64,000 nt of DNA. It comes from Selenomonadales bacterium (GTDB lineage Bacteria; Bacillota; Negativicutes; Sporomusales; UBA7701). The stretch lies in assembly GCA_029975165.1 (NCBI GenBank), contig JARKPR010000012.1, forward strand, positions 1 through 64,000. Direction: 5' to 3'. Below, one piece after another: positions 43,412 through 56,921 of the stretch. Each line of letters opens with the position of its first letter. Within the stretch, counting starts at the first letter, position 1. Both the position numbers and the translations under genes were made by a program. The notes beneath the pieces are model-generated. The model ran no database searches and was not told where the DNA came from. It saw only the letters and a list, made by a program, of their open reading frames with translations.

Positions 43412-43447
43412 GCCCCCATCTGCGTGCGTGGCATTGCAGTTGGGGGC
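43412..43447 (-). repeat. Possible minimal copy of the dispersed repeat (before recG)
   Basis: GCCCCC and GGGGGC close a 36-nt hairpin. On the minus strand its interior reads AACTGCAATGC and CACGCAGAT, resembling the family core AGATGCAAGGC and CGCCGCAGAT without the inner hairpin. It could also serve as a terminator of the preceding gene. Confidence 0.45.
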
Positions 43448-43472
43448 TTTGAACGATATTGGGGTGGATGGC

Positions 43473-45524
43473 TTGACCGACAGGAATACGAACATCAAGT
43501 ACATCAAGGGCGTCGGGCCGGCGAAGGCGGCGTTGTTGGCCAGGCTGGGAATCTTTACGCTCGGCGACCTGCTGGAGCATTACCCGCGCCGCTACGAGGA
43601 CCGAAGCCGGCTCAAGCCCATCCGGGCTTTGGCCGACGGCGAGGCGCAAACGTTCCAGGCGACGGTGGGGGCGGTCCAGGACTCCCGGCCGCGGCGGGGG
43701 CTGACGCTGACCAAGCTGACGGTGCGCGACGCGACCGGTGCCGCCCAGTTGGTGTGGTTCAACCAGCCGTACGTCAAAAAGTGGTTCCAGCCGGGCATGG
43801 AGCTGATAATCACCGGCCGGGTGGAGCGGCGCTTCGGCCAGGTGCAGGTGTCCCACCCGGAGATCGAGGTTATCGACGGCGCCGACCTGCTTCACACCGG
43901 GCGGATCGTACCCATTTACCCGGCGAGCGAGAATGTCGGCCAGCGCTGGCTGCGGACGCTCGTCCGCTACGCGCTGGACAATTGCCGGGAGCCGGGCGCC
44001 GAGTTCCTGTCGCCGGCGGTGGCGGGACAGTACGGGCTGATGGCCCGGGAGGCGGCGCTGGAGAATATCCATTTCCCCGTCGAGGCGGCCGCCCTGGAGG
44101 GGGCGAGGCGGCGGCTGGTGTTCGAGGAGCTGTATCTGCTGCAATGCGGGCTGCTGTATCTCAAGAGCCTGAGCAAGCAGGCCAGCACGGGGGTGAAGCA
44201 CGGCCCCGACGGCCCGCTGGTGAAGAAGGTGGAGGCCGCGCTGCCGTTTACGCTGACCGGGGACCAGCGGCAGGCACTGGCGGAGGTCAAGGCCGACATG
44301 GAGGATGCCCGGCCGATGCAGCGGCTCGTCCAGGGGGACGTGGGGTCGGGCAAGACGGTGCTGGCGGCCATCGCCCTGGCCAAGGCGGTGGAGAGCGGCT
44401 ACCAGGGGGCGATGATGGCGCCGACGGAGATTCTGGCCGAGCAGCACTGCCACACGCTGGCGCAGCTGCTGGCGCCGCAGGGCATTCGCATCGCCGCCCT
44501 GACCGGCAGCCTGACGAAGCGGACGCGCGAGGAAGTGCTGGACCGGCTGCAGGCCGGGCTGGTGGACGTGGTCGTCGGCACGCACGCTCTTATCCAGGAG
44601 GACGTCGTTTTCCGGCACCTGGGGCTGGTGGTGACCGACGAGCAGCACCGCTTCGGGGTGCGGCAGCGGGCCAGGCTGCAGGCCAAGGGGGCGACGCCGG
44701 ACGTGCTGGTCATGACGGCGACGCCTATCCCGCGGACGATGGCCCTGACGGTGTACGGCGATCTCGACGTGTCGGTGATCCGCGAGCTGCCGCCGGGGCG
44801 CAAGCCGGTGAAGACATACGCGGTGGGCGGCGAGATGCGCGAGCGGGTGTACAATTTCATCGTCAAGGAGGTGGCGGCCGGCCGCCAGGGGTATGTCGTC
44901 TGTCCGCTTGTCGAGGAATCGGACAAACTGGAGGTCCAGGCGGCGACCAAGCTGTACGAGCAGCTGGCCGGGACGTATTTCCGCAATATCCCCTGCTCCC
45001 TTGTGCACGGCCGCCTGAAAGCCGCCGACAAGGAGAAGGCGATGCGCGCCTTCTACTGCGGGGAGGTAAAGGTGCTGGTGGCGACGACGGTCATCGAGGT
45101 GGGCGTGAATGTGCCCAACGCCACGGTGATGGCGGTGGAGGGGGCGGATAGGTTCGGCCTGGCGCAGCTTCACCAGTTGCGGGGCCGCATCGGCCGCGGC
45201 GCCCATCAGTCGTATTGCATCCTGCTGTCGGACAACCAGGGGGCCGAGACGCGGGAGCGGCTGGCGATCATGGCCAAGGTCCAGGACGGCTTCGTGCTGG
45301 CGGAGAAGGACCTGGAGCTGAGGGGGCCGGGGCAGTTTTTCGGCACCCGCCAGCACGGCATCCCCGACCTGAAGATCGCCGATATCGTGAAGGATACCGG
45401 GGTGCTGCTGGAGGCGCGCCAGGCGGCGCAGCAGACGGTGGCGGTTCCCGAGCGGTTCGCGGCCGTGCGCCCGGCTTTGAGCGCGCGGTTCGGCGACCAT
45501 TTCGGCATGATCTTTCAGGGGTGA
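43473..45524 (+). CDS. recG: ATP-dependent DNA helicase RecG
   Basis: A 683-residue branch-migration helicase. It has an N-terminal wedge/OB domain (YIKGVGPAKA, HYPRRYEDR), Walker A GDVGSGKTV, DEQHRFGV for motif II, MTATPIPRT for motif III, and the TRG-like C-terminal QLHQLRGRIGRG. It remodels stalled forks and Holliday junctions. TTG 43473 yields the normal N-terminus; a frame from GTG 43428 would overlap the preceding hairpin. Confidence 0.94.
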   Translation: MTDRNTNIKYIKGVGPAKAALLARLGIFTLGDLLEHYPRRYEDRSRLKPIRALADGEAQTFQATVGAVQDSRPRRGLTLTKLTVRDATGAAQLVWFNQPYVKKWFQPGMELIITGRVERRFGQVQVSHPEIEVIDGADLLHTGRIVPIYPASENVGQRWLRTLVRYALDNCREPGAEFLSPAVAGQYGLMAREAALENIHFPVEAAALEGARRRLVFEELYLLQCGLLYLKSLSKQASTGVKHGPDGPLVKKVEAALPFTLTGDQRQALAEVKADMEDARPMQRLVQGDVGSGKTVLAAIALAKAVESGYQGAMMAPTEILAEQHCHTLAQLLAPQGIRIAALTGSLTKRTREEVLDRLQAGLVDVVVGTHALIQEDVVFRHLGLVVTDEQHRFGVRQRARLQAKGATPDVLVMTATPIPRTMALTVYGDLDVSVIRELPPGRKPVKTYAVGGEMRERVYNFIVKEVAAGRQGYVVCPLVEESDKLEVQAATKLYEQLAGTYFRNIPCSLVHGRLKAADKEKAMRAFYCGEVKVLVATTVIEVGVNVPNATVMAVEGADRFGLAQLHQLRGRIGRGAHQSYCILLSDNQGAETRERLAIMAKVQDGFVLAEKDLELRGPGQFFGTRQHGIPDLKIADIVKDTGVLLEARQAAQQTVAVPERFAAVRPALSARFGDHFGMIFQG

Positions 45525-46873: not shown

Positions 46874-47521
46874 ATGGATTCTCCTCTCCACCATTACGCA
46901 AACCGCGAATTGGCCAATGAACTGCGCCAGCTGCGGGACCGCAACGTGCTGCTGCTGCTTATCGACGGTTCGGCCGCCTTCGGCCGCCTCGGCCGGCTGG
47001 ACGACAATATCGTCACCGTTTTGCCGGCGGTGACCATCGTCGGGGTGACGACGGTACGCTTCCGGCCGCCCAATCCCACCCTGCCGGGCGTCGATATCCT
47101 CGTCAGCCAGTTTCTCGTCGATGTCTGCGACGTTGCGGCCGTAGTCGAGGGACCGTTCGTTTTTCCGCCGATCAGCGAGACCGGCAAGCCGGCCGGCTGC
47201 GGCAAGTACGGCTCGCCGCAAGCGAAGCACGGCAAGGCGATGGTGCGACAGCAGAGCGAACTGATCGACGAATTGGCGGATTTCGAAGGGCAGAGTGCCG
47301 GAGTCGTCCTTATGGGCGGCTGGGTCGTCGGCGGGCAGTTGGGCGAGGTCAGCGAGTGCCTGGCCGTGTTCGGACCGGGCACAACTTCGTCGCCGCTCTT
47401 GATAACTCTGGGGGCGGTCAATGTCTTCGGGCCGGCCCTGGTCGGCGGCGTTCAGCCGATGGTGGGCACCTTCCGCACCTGGGCCAACCTGCGGGCTATC
47501 ACCGGACTGCTGATTCCGTAG
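46874..47521 (+). CDS. Uncharacterised protein with an LSm-like N-terminal segment
   Basis: A 215-residue protein with no signal peptide. Residues about 20-65 (RNVLLLLIDGSAAFGRL, then a short turn and VTIVGVTTVRFRPPNP) alternate like the strands of a small beta-barrel such as LSm. The C-terminal half is glycine- and valine-rich. AAGGAGG precedes the ATG. It sits between two terminators and a tandem motif, so it is an independent unit. No function is assigned. Confidence 0.6.
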   Translation: MDSPLHHYANRELANELRQLRDRNVLLLLIDGSAAFGRLGRLDDNIVTVLPAVTIVGVTTVRFRPPNPTLPGVDILVSQFLVDVCDVAAVVEGPFVFPPISETGKPAGCGKYGSPQAKHGKAMVRQQSELIDELADFEGQSAGVVLMGGWVVGGQLGEVSECLAVFGPGTTSSPLLITLGAVNVFGPALVGGVQPMVGTFRTWANLRAITGLLIP

Positions 47522-47831: not shown

Positions 47832-47847
47832 GAACCCAGGATTGCCG

Positions 47848-47882
47848 ACAGCCCGTTCCGCGCCAGCGGAAGGGGCTGTTTT
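47848..47882 (+). terminator. Rho-independent terminator of the tautomerase gene
   Basis: ACAGCCCGTTCCGC (47848-47861) pairs with GCGGAAGGGGCTGT (47866-47879) with one mismatch, then TTTT. Confidence 0.82.
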
Positions 47883-47901
47883 GCCGGAAGGAGACGGAGA
47901 G

Positions 47902-48399
47902 ATGAAGATGTTTCAGTTCGCCGCCAGCCTTGAGGCCCAGATCCGCCAGGAGGTAGAGGACGCGACGGGCCAGGCGCCGCCCGAGCTGCAGCCGGTGGTC
48001 GCCGCGGTGGGCAGGTTCGAGGCCGAGTTCGAGCTGTTGCTCGACCGCGCCCAGTATGTGGATGTCGATACCGGCCGCTATCCGGAGGTGGATGCCGCCG
48101 CGCTGCTGGGAACGAACGGCGTATGGGAGGAGGCCGCGTCCCGGCTGAGGCCGTTCGGGGAGACGACGGTGCCGGCGCTGGCGGCGCTATGGCTCCTGCA
48201 CACCCTGACGGAGCGGTCGGGGCAGTATTATCAGCAGGCGGCGCTCAACAGCGCCCATCCGGCCGTGAAGCTGTTTTTCGCGTCGCTGGCCGAGGTCAAG
48301 GCAATGCTGCGGCGGCGCCTGGACGGCCTGCTGCGCCAATTGTACAACGCCGCCTGGGCGGAGGTCGGGTTCGCGCCCTTCGTATTGGGCAAGGATTAA
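47902..48399 (+). CDS. Helical protein, possibly ferritin-like, unknown function
   Basis: A 165-residue, strongly helical protein with no membrane segment. Residues about 85-140 (LAALWLLHTLTERSGQYYQQAA then HPAVKLFFASLAEVKAML) resemble the later helices of rubrerythrin-like four-helix bundles. The metal-binding ExxH pairs are not seen, so iron binding is doubtful. AAGGAGACGGAGAG precedes the ATG. A repeat copy follows its 3' end. Confidence 0.55.
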   Translation: MKMFQFAASLEAQIRQEVEDATGQAPPELQPVVAAVGRFEAEFELLLDRAQYVDVDTGRYPEVDAAALLGTNGVWEEAASRLRPFGETTVPALAALWLLHTLTERSGQYYQQAALNSAHPAVKLFFASLAEVKAMLRRRLDGLLRQLYNAAWAEVGFAPFVLGKD

Positions 48400-50716: not shown

Positions 50717-50732
50717 GAAAGGGGTGTTCAAA

Positions 50733-51128
50733 ATGAATACCGTGAAGAAGTTCGTCATCGGCACCCTGGCTGTGCTCGCGCTGACGGCGGGCATGCCGGC
50801 GGTCGGCGCGGCCGCGCCGCACGAGTACAAGGCGGCGCTGGACATCGTCGCCACCGCGTACGCTCCCGGTCCCCACGACAACGGCAAGTGGGGCAACCTG
50901 ACCCACATCGGCACCCAGGTGCGCCCCGGCATCATCGCCGTAGACCCGCGGGTCATCCCGCTGGGTTCGCAGGTGTACATCGAGTACCCTGACGGCAGCG
51001 GCGCCTATGCGACCGCCGAGGATACCGGCGGCGCCATCAAGGGCAACCGCATCGACATCGCGATGGAGACAGTCAAGAAGGCGTACGGCTTCGGAATTCA
51101 GAACGTAAAAGTGTATGTGCTTAAATAG
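50733..51128 (+). CDS. Exported 3D-domain protein (probable peptidoglycan lytic enzyme)
   Basis: A 131-residue protein with a signal peptide (to about residue 27, AVGAAA) and a 3D domain. The three conserved Asp-containing segments are VDPRVIPLG, AEDTGGAIKG and NRIDIAM. The domain is shared with MltA-like and YuiC/stationary-phase muralytic proteins. No LysM or SH3 anchor is present. Control by a c-di-AMP riboswitch fits a cell-wall remodelling role. Confidence 0.9.
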   Translation: MNTVKKFVIGTLAVLALTAGMPAVGAAAPHEYKAALDIVATAYAPGPHDNGKWGNLTHIGTQVRPGIIAVDPRVIPLGSQVYIEYPDGSGAYATAEDTGGAIKGNRIDIAMETVKKAYGFGIQNVKVYVLK

Positions 51129-51135
51129 GTTCCAG

Positions 51136-51163
51136 GCCCGGGGATAAGCCCCGGGCTTTTTTC
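51136..51163 (+). terminator. Rho-independent terminator
   Basis: GCCCGGGG (51136-51143) pairs with CCCCGGGC (51149-51156), followed by TTTTTT. Confidence 0.87.
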
Positions 51164-51244: not shown

Positions 51245-54166
51245 ATGGACAACGGGGCGCGGAAAAAGCTGCGGGCGGCGGTGGCTGCGCTGCGGCAGAC
51301 GCTCGCAGAAGGTGGGGGCCGGGCGGGGGAAGCGGCCTGGCCGGCGGCGATGGCGCTGACGCTGGCGGCGGCGATGGCAGCCAGAGGCGTGGGCGGTGCG
51401 GCGCCCGACTTTTTCGCCGCCGGCGACGGGCTGCCGCCGGCGGTGGCCGGGCGCTGCCGGACGCTGCTTGACGATTGCCGCGAGCTGCTGGCCGCGCCGG
51501 CCGTCCTCGGCTGGGTCCACCAGTTCTGGCACAGCGGCGAACGGGCCGGGCTGGCCGGCCGCACCCGCGGCGACATGTGCACGAAGATCGGCGCTGCGAC
51601 GCTTGTGCCGGCTACGCAGGTGTACAGCGAGGAATATATGGCCGCCTTCCTGGCGGAAAATTCCCTCGGCGCGCTGTGGCTGGCCAGGCATCCGGCCTCG
51701 CCGCTGGCGGCGGGGTGGCGCTATCGCGTTCGGCCGCCGGCACCGGAGGCCGCCGCTTTCCGGACGGTGCGCGAGGTGACGGTCTGCGACCCATCGTGCG
51801 GCGCCGGCCATTTTCTGCTGGCGGCCTTCGACCTGCTGTACGCCATGTACCGCGAAGAAGGGCACGACCCGGCGGCGGCGTGCGCGGCGATAATCAACGG
51901 CAATCTGTTCGGGATGGATATCGACGCGCGGGCGGTGGCGGTGGCCAGGGCCGCGCTGTGGCTGCGGGCCAGGGAGAAGGCGCCGGCCCTCGACAGCGGT
52001 GCGCTGCCCGGCCTGTACAACAACATCGTCGCCGGCGGGGGCGAGCTGGGGTCGCTGCTGGCGTCGGCGGAAGCGACCGGACCGCTCGCCGGCCTGCTGG
52101 CGCGGCGCTATACGGTGGTCGTCGCCAACCCGCCGTACCTCGACAAGCGCGATTACGCCGCCCCGCTGCGCGCTCACCTGCGGCGACACTACGCCGCCGG
52201 GGCCGGCAACCTCTACGCCGCCTTCATCCTCCGCTGCCTGGACCTAGCGGAGCGCTACGTGGCGATGGTGACGCCGCAGACCTTCCTGTTCATCCGCAGC
52301 TACGCCGCCCTGCGCCGCGAGGTGTTCGGCCGGGCGGCGGTCCGCACGCTCGCCCACCTGGGGCTGGGGGCGTTCGCCGACGCGGTGGTGGACGCCGCCC
52401 TGTTCGTGCTGGACAAAGAAGGGGACGGCGCCACGCCGGGAGTGTATTTCAAGCTGCTGGCGGCGCCGCACAAGGCGGCGGCCCTGGAAGCGGCGGTGCG
52501 GGAGCATAACGCCGGCGGCAGCCCGCCGGAGGTTTTCGTGCGCACGGCGGCGGCGGCCACCGTTCTCAGCGGCGGGCCGCTGGCCTACTGGCTGGGCGAC
52601 GGGCTGCGGGCGGCGGCGGCCGAAGGGAGGCAACTGCACGAGGTCGCCGACGTCGTCCTGGGGATGAAGACGGCCGACAACGCCCGGTTCGTCCGCCGTT
52701 GGTGGGAGGTGTGGCAGCCGGGCGGCGCGGCCCCGGGCTGGGCGCCGTACGAGAAGGAGGCGAGCGGCTACCGCTACGCCCGCCCCGCCGCCCACTACGT
52801 CCGCTGGACGGAAGCGGCGCAGGAATTTTACCGCCGCCATTATTCCGCCCAGCTGCCCAACCCGCGGTATTGGTTCAAGGAAGGGATCGTCTACGGCCTG
52901 ATCAGCAGCAAGGCCTTTACCGCCAAGCTGCTGCCGGCCGGGCATATGGCCGATATGGCGGCAAGCTGCGTTTTCCCGCACGACCGGGGCGACACCGCTT
53001 TCCTGCTCGGCCTGCTCAACGCCAAGGTCTACCGCTGGCTGCTGGCGATGTTCAACCCGACCGTCAACTACCAGCCTGTCGACCTGCAGCGGCTGCCGCT
53101 GCCGCTGGTGGCCGCCGGGGCGCGGGCGGAAATCGGCCGCCTGGCGATGATTGCGGCGGCGGCGGCGGCCGAGCTGCGGGCAACGGCGATAACCGACCGG
53201 GGCTACCGCTTCGCGCCGGCGGTCTGGCTGCCGCTGGGGGTTAAGCTGCCGCAGCGGGCGCTGGCCTTGTGGCTGGCGTCGCTGCGCTACCTGCTGGCGG
53301 CTGACGGCATCGACAGGCTGCTGGCGGCGTCCCTGGCCATGCCGGAGGGCGAGGCGGCGGCGATGGCCGCCGAGCTTGGCGGCTCGCCGGGCGATCGCCC
53401 GGCGCTGGCCGGCTACGATGAGCTCCCGCAGGAATTGGCAATGGACAGGTTTTCGCCGCCGGCCGCAGTGGTAAGGTATTCGCCGGCGGAAACGGCGGCG
53501 CTGCAGGAGCGGCTGCGGCGGCTATATTGGGCCGGGCCGGCCCGCGGCCAGCTGCCGGAGGATTTTTTTGCCGCCCTGGCGGCGGCTATCAAGCTGCATC
53601 CCGTGTCCGTATACAACCTGCTGGCCGCGGGGATAAGCGGCGAGGGCTGGCGCTGCCCGCCGCTGGCGAAGGAGCTGGCGGCCGACTTCGCGAGCGCGGC
53701 GGTGCTGGCGCTGCTCGGCCACGCCTGGCCGGGGCAGGAGGAGGTGGCCGCGCCGGGGCTTATGGGTGCGGACGTATTGCAGGAGAGGCTGGACGGCCTG
53801 GTCGGCCGCTACGCCGGCCGGACGGAGTTTGCGGCCGACTTTGCCGCCGTGGCCGGCACCGGCCTGGCGGCGTGGCTGGAGAGGGATTTTTTCCGGCGCC
53901 ACGTCGCCCAGTTCAGGCGGCGGCCGGTTGTCTGGCAGACGGTTGCCGGCCCCGGCTCGTGCCTGTTCCACTGGCGGCGGGCCGGCGAGGCGGCCGCCCG
54001 CTGCGGGCTGGACGGCTATGACTTTCATGCCGACGGGGGCGTGCGGATCGCCGTCGCCCCCTGGCAGGCGGCCGGCCTGCTGGCGGCGCCGGTGCTGGCG
54101 CCCGGCGACCTGGCGCGGGCGCTGGCCGACGGCCGCCGCTGCCGGGACGGGGACTATGTGCTGTAG
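51245..54166 (+). CDS. PglX/Eco57I-like adenine-specific DNA methyltransferase
   Basis: A 973-residue protein. The SAM motif is CDPSCGAGHFL near residue 182 and the catalytic motif VVVANPPYLDKRDY near residue 295, an N6-adenine signature. Upstream is PATQVYSEEYMAAFLAENSLG, a pattern I associate with the PglX/Eco57I group, and after it VLGMKTADNARFVRRW, typical of the target-recognition region. The N-terminal ~110 residues show no nuclease motif. No pglZ, brxC or restriction gene is adjacent, so it looks like an orphan enzyme. GC content matches its neighbours. Confidence 0.82.
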   Translation: MDNGARKKLRAAVAALRQTLAEGGGRAGEAAWPAAMALTLAAAMAARGVGGAAPDFFAAGDGLPPAVAGRCRTLLDDCRELLAAPAVLGWVHQFWHSGERAGLAGRTRGDMCTKIGAATLVPATQVYSEEYMAAFLAENSLGALWLARHPASPLAAGWRYRVRPPAPEAAAFRTVREVTVCDPSCGAGHFLLAAFDLLYAMYREEGHDPAAACAAIINGNLFGMDIDARAVAVARAALWLRAREKAPALDSGALPGLYNNIVAGGGELGSLLASAEATGPLAGLLARRYTVVVANPPYLDKRDYAAPLRAHLRRHYAAGAGNLYAAFILRCLDLAERYVAMVTPQTFLFIRSYAALRREVFGRAAVRTLAHLGLGAFADAVVDAALFVLDKEGDGATPGVYFKLLAAPHKAAALEAAVREHNAGGSPPEVFVRTAAAATVLSGGPLAYWLGDGLRAAAAEGRQLHEVADVVLGMKTADNARFVRRWWEVWQPGGAAPGWAPYEKEASGYRYARPAAHYVRWTEAAQEFYRRHYSAQLPNPRYWFKEGIVYGLISSKAFTAKLLPAGHMADMAASCVFPHDRGDTAFLLGLLNAKVYRWLLAMFNPTVNYQPVDLQRLPLPLVAAGARAEIGRLAMIAAAAAAELRATAITDRGYRFAPAVWLPLGVKLPQRALALWLASLRYLLAADGIDRLLAASLAMPEGEAAAMAAELGGSPGDRPALAGYDELPQELAMDRFSPPAAVVRYSPAETAALQERLRRLYWAGPARGQLPEDFFAALAAAIKLHPVSVYNLLAAGISGEGWRCPPLAKELAADFASAAVLALLGHAWPGQEEVAAPGLMGADVLQERLDGLVGRYAGRTEFAADFAAVAGTGLAAWLERDFFRRHVAQFRRRPVVWQTVAGPGSCLFHWRRAGEAAARCGLDGYDFHADGGVRIAVAPWQAAGLLAAPVLAPGDLARALADGRRCRDGDYVL

Positions 54167-55284
54167 ACGGGGTTCCCGTCGATAAACACCTGTTTTATCT
54201 TCGTCGCGACGGCGAACGGGTCGCCATCGAAGATGACGAGGTCGGCGTCCTTGCCGGCGTCGATGCTGCCCACCCGGCCGGCGACGCCGATGATCTCGGC
54301 GGCGCTCAGCGTGATGGCCCGCAGCGCCGCGTCGTAGGGCAGGCCTTCGCGGACGGCGAGGGCGGCTTCGAGGCGGAGGCCGCCGATGGGCAGGAAGGGG
54401 TGGTCGGTGATGAGGGCGACCTTGACGCCGGCAGCGTGGAGGATGGCCGGGGTGCGGTAGGTGCGGTCGCGGAGCTCGACCTTGACGCGGGCGGTGATGG
54501 ACGGCCCGACGGCGGCGGGTACGCCACGGGCGGCGATGGCGTCGGCGACCTTGTGGCCGGCGGTGGCGTGCTCGAGGGTGATGGCGAGGCCGAATTCGGC
54601 CGCGATCCTGAGCGCGGTCATGATGTCGTCGGCGGCATGGGCGTGGGCCCGCAGGGGCAGTTCGCCGCGCAGAACTTTAGCGAGGATCTCCAGCCGCAGG
54701 TTGCGTTCAGCCGGCGGCTTTTTCACGTAGTCGGCGGCGGCGGCGAGGTTCTCGCGGATGATGCCGGCGACGGTCATGCGGGTCGAGGGGGCCCGGTCCT
54801 TGCCGCCGTACAGCTTGATGGGGTTCTCGCCGAAGGCGATCTTGACCCCGGCCGGCTGGCGCAGGACCATGTCGTCGATGATGCGGCCGCGGGTCTTGAT
54901 GGCTACGCTCTGGCCGCCGATGACGTTTTCACTGCCGGGGGTGGCGATGATGGCGGTGACGCCGCCGCCAACGGCGTCTTCGAGGCCTTCGTCTTCGGGG
55001 TTGACGGCGTCGAGGGCCCGCAGGTGGGGGCAGACGGGATCGGCGATTTCGTTTTTGTCGACATGGGCGTCGCCGACGCCTTCCTCGGCGATGCCGAGGT
55101 GGGTGTGGCAGTCGATGAGGCCGGGGGTGACGACGCAGCCGGCGGCGTCGAGCACGCGGGCGTCGGCCGGGACGGGCAGGTGCCGGCCGACGGCGACGAT
55201 TTTGCCGGCGGCCAGCAGGACTACGCCGCCCTCGATAGTGCCGTGGCTGACAGTATGGACGGTTCCATCGCGGATTGCGAGCAT
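54154..55284 (-). CDS. Imidazolonepropionase-like amidohydrolase
   Basis: A 376-residue metal-dependent hydrolase of the amidohydrolase superfamily. The first metal motif is CHTHLGI; later elements are HAHAADDI, LEHATAGHK and the Asp of TDHPFLP. Imidazolonepropionase, dihydroorotase-like and other cyclic amidases share this fold; histidine-degradation genes are absent, so the substrate is unknown. ATG 55284 follows GGAGGAG. Its 3' end overlaps the convergent methyltransferase gene by 13 bp. Confidence 0.84.
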   Translation of the reverse strand: MLAIRDGTVHTVSHGTIEGGVVLLAAGKIVAVGRHLPVPADARVLDAAGCVVTPGLIDCHTHLGIAEEGVGDAHVDKNEIADPVCPHLRALDAVNPEDEGLEDAVGGGVTAIIATPGSENVIGGQSVAIKTRGRIIDDMVLRQPAGVKIAFGENPIKLYGGKDRAPSTRMTVAGIIRENLAAAADYVKKPPAERNLRLEILAKVLRGELPLRAHAHAADDIMTALRIAAEFGLAITLEHATAGHKVADAIAARGVPAAVGPSITARVKVELRDRTYRTPAILHAAGVKVALITDHPFLPIGGLRLEAALAVREGLPYDAALRAITLSAAEIIGVAGRVGSIDAGKDADLVIFDGDPFAVATKIKQVFIDGNPVYST

Positions 55285-55408
55285 TTTTCTCCTCCGGCTG
55301 CGCATGATAGATTTAGTGTGAAGTGGGAAAACGGTTTGTATCCGCCGCCGGCGGCGGGAATTTTTTTCGGCCGGCGCGGCAAAAGGGTGGATTTCGGCCG
55401 AGCAGTTA

Positions 55409-55445: not shown

Positions 55446-56921
<1,476 letters not shown>

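Follow-up and report, generated by a model that had tools for sequence, protein, structure and literature searches.

Methyltransferases such as Dam, CcrM and CamA have housekeeping or epigenetic roles on host DNA, and solitary methyltransferases can protect host DNA from restriction enzymes. CamA of Clostridioides difficile is an orphan m6A methyltransferase of about 577 amino acids (aa) which modifies CAAAAA. The methyltransferase of type 1 BREX, BrxX, binds its site without methylating when it is alone, and alone it produces no methylation either in vitro or in vivo (PMC11842806). According to a proposal made in that work, BrxX is kept inactive by its N-terminal domain (NTD), its C-terminal domain (CTD) or an insert, parts which would inhibit the enzyme or bind its partners, and is released once BrxB, BrxC and BrxZ have bound; the Streptomyces PglX, in which an NTD and a CTD of this kind are missing, does methylate DNA in vitro (PMC11842806). 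In E. coli BrxX the flipped adenine is contacted by T243, and the base-reading residues of the target-recognition domain (TRD) are K681, D684, R751, Q784 and N823 (PMC11842806).

The gene considered here lies in a window of 64,000 nucleotides, the whole stretch of DNA that was analysed, which spans positions 1 to 64,000 of contig JARKPR010000012.1 from a Selenomonadales bacterium (assembly GCA_029975165.1). An earlier note on this DNA had placed at 51245-54166 (+) an orphan methyltransferase of the PglX group with PATQ, NPPY and KTADNARF motifs, and had suggested that it is either a solitary epigenetic methyltransferase or a defence remnant. The gene is present in a single copy, and its intact reading frame, family matches and fold identify it as an orphan PglX/BrxX-type N6-adenine DNA methyltransferase of 973 aa. 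The frame is uninterrupted from an ATG at 51245, with coding sequence to 54163 and a stop codon to 54166; GGGAGGA is found 5 nt ahead of the ATG, and a stem-loop resembling an intrinsic terminator (51134-51158, +) separates the gene from the upstream 3D-domain gene.

Four domains, all encoded on the forward strand, can be delimited in the protein: a short NTD (residues 1-84, 51245-51496), a methyltransferase domain (MTD; residues 85-440, 51497-52564) from which most of the BrxX-specific insert is absent, a TRD (residues 441-622, 52565-53110) which is the best-conserved domain among the orthologues described below, and a CTD (residues 623-973, 53111-54163) which has a BrxX-like fold and a poorly conserved sequence. 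The three motifs of the earlier note are all present: PATQ at residues 122-125 (51608-51619, +), where T124 aligns with BrxX T243, the catalytic motif IV NPPY at residues 295-298 (52127-52138, +), and KTADNARF within GMKTADNARF at residues 473-482. The AdoMet motif I, DPSCGAGHF, occupies residues 182-190 (51788-51814, +). The core of motif I and NPPY (N295, P296, P297 and Y298) are invariant in all seven orthologues, and T124 is likewise invariant among them. The claim that the gene shares the codon style and GC content of its neighbours holds for third-position GC (0.893, against 0.87-0.91) but not for overall GC, which at 73% is above the 62-70% of the neighbours.

The protein belongs to the PglX/BrxX methyltransferase family. 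Profile searches match Pfam Eco57I over its cut-off (1.7e-16), NCBIfam BREX_1_MTaseX (4e-110) and PADLOC PglX (3.5e-99), which bears out the proposed PglX-group identity, with the proviso that the NCBIfam score of 369 bits is under the 500-bit curated cut-off, while true BREX PglX proteins score 631-1434 bits in the same scan. Among solved proteins, E. coli BrxX and Salmonella PglX are the nearest by sequence. The protein matched no nuclease domain, either in Pfam at the default threshold or in the NCBIfam and PADLOC scans. An AlphaFold model built from 43 aligned relatives (pLDDT 89.4, pTM 0.85) has as its best structural match the DNA-bound E. coli BrxX (9ewz; Z 41.4 over 841 residues, model 4-958), followed by Salmonella PglX (8c45; Z 35.5, 845 residues), CamA (Z 30.9, residues 83-699) and MmeI (Z 25.4). 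In this model the 84-aa NTD is helical, and the BrxX fold covers the whole chain, including the CTD. A poor model for which only the seven orthologues were aligned (pLDDT 57) again ranked BrxX/PglX first (Z 13-15, >600 residues, model 1-961), so the match in the CTD is not merely an effect of the BREX sequences in the alignment.

The orphan proteins depart from PglX proteins of confirmed BREX systems in elements proposed to hold BrxX inactive: the NTD is 84-94 residues long in the orphans, as against 88-225 (in most cases close to 200), and the insert specific to BrxX in the MTD is 37-44 residues (37 in the window's protein), as against 61-136. The orphan lineage has thus mostly lost the NTD and the insert, and its CTD has diverged in sequence. 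Because most of two elements has been lost and the third has diverged, the architecture fits an enzyme that would work alone, but the CTD, itself among the parts proposed as inhibitory, retains the BrxX fold, and this counts against autonomy. We suggest tentatively, and with at least as much doubt as conviction, that the protein may be a natural "autonomous BrxX", which either departed from BREX or was never part of it, shed the greater part of the NTD and the insert, and took on a housekeeping epigenetic role with a single motif fixed in both families.

The earlier note had reported no BREX partner near the gene, and the absence extends to the genome as a whole: genome-wide searches for two proteins, PglZ (PF08665) and BrxC (NF033441), found neither in any of the seven genomes with an orthologue, the window's genome included, while the same searches recovered both proteins in 4/4 control genomes with a BREX-linked PglX, two of which belong to the same order. 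The window's assembly is 96% complete, and with the other six genomes in agreement the searches yielded no sign, as judged by PglZ and BrxC, of a BREX locus elsewhere that lacks its own pglX. Of ten neighbouring genes that were scanned, eight have housekeeping or other ordinary cellular identities, and for the remaining pair (46874-47521 and 47842-48399) Pfam gave no match. The scan produced no restriction partner linked to the methyltransferase gene, the scanned neighbours being order-wide genes with no nuclease match.

In order to place the gene in its evolutionary context, orthologues were sought in genome contigs with an alignment query, a single-protein query having given no match. The orthologues number seven with the window's own gene included, and come mostly from draft or metagenome-assembled (MAG) genomes. 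Three come from other species of the window's genus, in its family (f1), at 69-73% identity, a range which shows the methyltransferase evolving faster than its neighbours recG and guaB (about 87-90% within the genus); three more come from genomes of a second family, f5, whose contigs are from soil MAGs, at 40-45% identity. The order-wide neighbourhood consists, with losses, of recG (43428-45524, + in the window), a VTT gene, the two unassigned genes, an FAD gene, a gene for a 3D-domain protein (50724-51128, +) and guaB, encoding IMP dehydrogenase (55452-56921, +). Within the recG-guaB region the methyltransferase gene is found upstream of guaB in 7/7 f1 and f5 genomes that hold the region, and only in these two families does it adjoin guaB, directly or with one amidohydrolase gene between (54154-55305, -, convergent, in the window). 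All of these linked genes, including the 3D-domain gene and the amidohydrolase, which is also found in f4, occur in genomes without the methyltransferase, and none shares its distribution.

No orthologue was found in any genome of six other families. In four of these (f3, f4, f7 and f8), wherever recG and guaB are linked, the interval contains no methyltransferase gene, and in the remaining two (f2 and f6) they are far apart or on separate contigs. Two more f1 genomes, one of them from the same genus, had no orthologue match, and since recG and guaB were also without a match at the threshold used, the region is absent from these two assemblies, which are uninformative. A tree of recG and guaB unites f1 and f5 with support of 100/99, and the methyltransferase tree likewise separates f1 from f5. 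This distribution would be explained most simply by a single gain in the ancestor of f1 and f5, or else by losses in the other families, with inheritance thereafter. The common site beside guaB in every region-holding genome of two sister families shows the locus to be conserved in relatives and supports the suggestion of long residence made in the earlier note. The branch leading to the methyltransferase is deep and weakly placed (82/58), so that descent from BREX and recruitment of such a gene by BREX are both candidate histories.

A phage origin was considered and rejected: phage-encoded relatives exist, but they make a separate, distant clade. Six viral contigs (L108, L109, L112, L113, L114 and L116) carry full-length PglX-like proteins of 1084-1164 aa which form this clade of their own, and plasmid and phage records yielded only relatives below 32% identity, whose alignments span roughly half of the query at most.

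The distribution of constraint along the protein was compared with that in BREX PglX. For the pair counts and the contact positions given below, the comparators were restricted to 23 PglX proteins from genomes that also encode BrxC (close by in those rows that were checked); four genomes without BrxC and an unlinked copy in G205 were removed, which left the result unchanged. Across the four f1 species the gene as a whole has a dN/dS of 0.24-0.30, with values of 0.30-0.34 for the NTD, 0.21-0.28 for the MTD, 0.14-0.23 for the TRD and 0.26-0.36 for the CTD, and the TRD is lowest in 5/6 pairs. Between f1 and f5 the identity is 31% in the NTD, 49% in the MTD, 57% in the TRD and 29% in the CTD, which is the fastest-diverging domain, whereas the corresponding values for BREX PglX are 46, 46, 41 and 53%. 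The TRD ranks first for conservation among 792 windows of 182 residues in the protein. It is conserved at least as well as the MTD in 21/21 orphan pairs, as against 13/155 confirmed-BREX pairs compared at MTD identities of 43-90%, these counts being descriptive, as pairs share sequences. On the sequence comparisons, the TRD-first pattern thus appears as the reverse of that of BREX PglX; the window-by-window correlation of the two conservation profiles is negative and not significant (Spearman -0.37, p 0.09), so the claim of opposite conservation is to be read from the domain means.

The base-reading residues K681, D684, R751, Q784 and N823 of BrxX align, in an alignment of ~28% identity, with L472, K475, P538, M571 and N608 of the window's protein. 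These five putative base-contact positions are invariant in 7/7 orphans and have 6-10 letters each (a gap being counted) in the 23 BREX PglX proteins, a constancy which we read as one recognition motif maintained over two families. Given the substitutions at the contact residues, the motif is predicted to differ from GGTAAG.

If the gene were a defence remnant, that is, a pglX left to drift after the loss of its BREX locus, then a PglX family member shorter than BREX PglX in genomes without BREX is what would be expected. Drift would not, however, keep the TRD best, and the gene is intact in 7/7 genomes of two families, with the dN/dS values given above and invariant catalytic motifs and key TRD positions; the intact frames and the constraint centred on the TRD contradict this half of the earlier suggestion, which we regard as very improbable. 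The invariance of N295, P296, P297, Y298, T124 and motif I is also unexpected for a DNA-binding regulator in which methylation has been lost, and this explanation, for which the binding of BrxX alone to its site without methylation provides a precedent, appears to us scarcely credible.

An unrecognised partner elsewhere in the genome, either a nuclease or a BREX-like effector without PglZ and BrxC, would leave the methyltransferase as the modifying component of a defence pair. The retained BrxX-like CTD, the two neighbours without a Pfam match and the scope of the genome-wide search, which spanned PglZ and BrxC only, are compatible with such a partner. We nevertheless consider it unlikely, because no linked gene follows the distribution of the methyltransferase, because a defence specificity would be expected to diversify, yet the TRD is the most conserved domain, and because the CTD is the domain that diverges fastest. 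A fixed specificity is also compatible with an anti-restriction enzyme which protects the host DNA against a restriction enzyme common among mobile elements, but no matching nuclease is known in this case, and vertical inheritance at one site in two families points to a need that is steady, not one that comes and goes, which makes this explanation decidedly improbable.

The reading that we favour, and consider probable, is that the gene encodes a vertically inherited solitary m6A methyltransferase of the PglX/BrxX family with one fixed, probably non-palindromic motif and a housekeeping role. The earlier suggestion of a solitary epigenetic methyltransferase is supported by the single genomic site, by the lack of PglZ and BrxC in the searched genomes, by the strongest purifying selection falling in the TRD, and by the conservation of the TRD above that of the catalytic domain. 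We infer an active enzyme that would bind double-stranded DNA between the MTD and the TRD, with the TRD reading one lineage-fixed motif which, by analogy with BrxX, would be asymmetric and about 6 bp long; if the motif is asymmetric, then one strand would be methylated. The adenine would be flipped into the NPPY pocket and methylated at N6 without BREX partners, and inheritance would have been vertical since the f1+f5 ancestor. Most likely the enzyme would act on the DNA of its host in a housekeeping or epigenetic capacity, possibly a regulatory one. Such an enzyme would give these anaerobes, for which no paper on methylomes was found in the open-access literature, a lineage-fixed and probably non-palindromic m6A mark. 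A BREX-free relative in which two of the proposed inhibitory elements are lost and the third has diverged also offers a direct test of the inhibition idea, and if the orphan methylates alone, then the elements it lost are candidate control parts of BrxX. The signature of a TRD that is most conserved together with relaxed partner domains offers a simple sequence-only test which separates housekeeping from defence PglX genes.

Several other methyltransferases were observed in the course of this work. A second adenine methyltransferase of 656 aa in the window's genome (L016:8870-10840 (-), G000:C80:13873-15840), whose nearest solved structure is C. difficile CamA (3e-37), is found in 23/28 genomes of the order, with neighbours conserved in five families, and looks like an order-wide CamA-type orphan; CamA itself is, to our knowledge, described as seldom present beyond C. 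difficile. In another genus, two species whose genomes lack BrxC carry PglX proteins of 1155 and 1135 aa (L127:6536-10003 (+) and L128:7028-10435 (+)) which are 95% identical in the TRD versus 85% in the MTD and have several neighbours in common; these possibly represent a second, independent BREX-free PglX. Thermotogae MAGs contain compact PglX-like proteins of 989 aa beside sugar-transport genes (L021:60-3029 (+) and L022), with a similarly short NTD (78 aa) and insert (41 aa), which are distant from the window's family. An unlinked extra PglX, a BREX-1 protein of 969 aa adjoining ssb (L087:8410-11319 (+)), lies about 290 kb from the BrxC and second PglX of the same genome.

With the BrxX/PglX of type 1 BREX the orphan shares the NTD-MTD-TRD-CTD layout, the NPPY pocket and the full-length fold, but it is about 230 residues shorter, with a short NTD and insert, a conserved TRD and a diverged CTD, and it is found in genomes without PglZ and BrxC. 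CamA is similarly a solitary, lineage-conserved adenine methyltransferase with a non-palindromic motif (as the orphan's would probably be) and matches the orphan in the fold of the MTD and TRD, but it has no counterpart of the CTD, and its closer relative in the window's genome is the 656-aa protein. Streptomyces coelicolor PglX (Pgl, BREX type 2), which methylates DNA in vitro without a BrxX-type NTD and CTD (PMC11842806), is by contrast part of the Pgl defence system, and the orphan matches the BREX-2 model weakly (8e-13). MmeI and DrdV (type IIL) and the type IIG enzymes resemble the orphan in the architecture of the MTD and TRD (Z about 25) but carry a nuclease, a domain for which the orphan gave no match. 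HG5 of the archaeal genus Haloterrigena, a persistent BREX-like methyltransferase which produces m6A at CTGGAG, can be likened to the orphan from its description as PglX-like and persistent in one lineage, but it is archaeal and conserved at the level of a genus, and the passages of the paper that were consulted give no analysis of its site, TRD or architecture (PMC10609329). No paper on a compact BREX-free PglX in this lineage was found in the open-access literature; orphan and persistent PglX-like methyltransferases are thus already known, and it is the compact BREX-free branch that is new.
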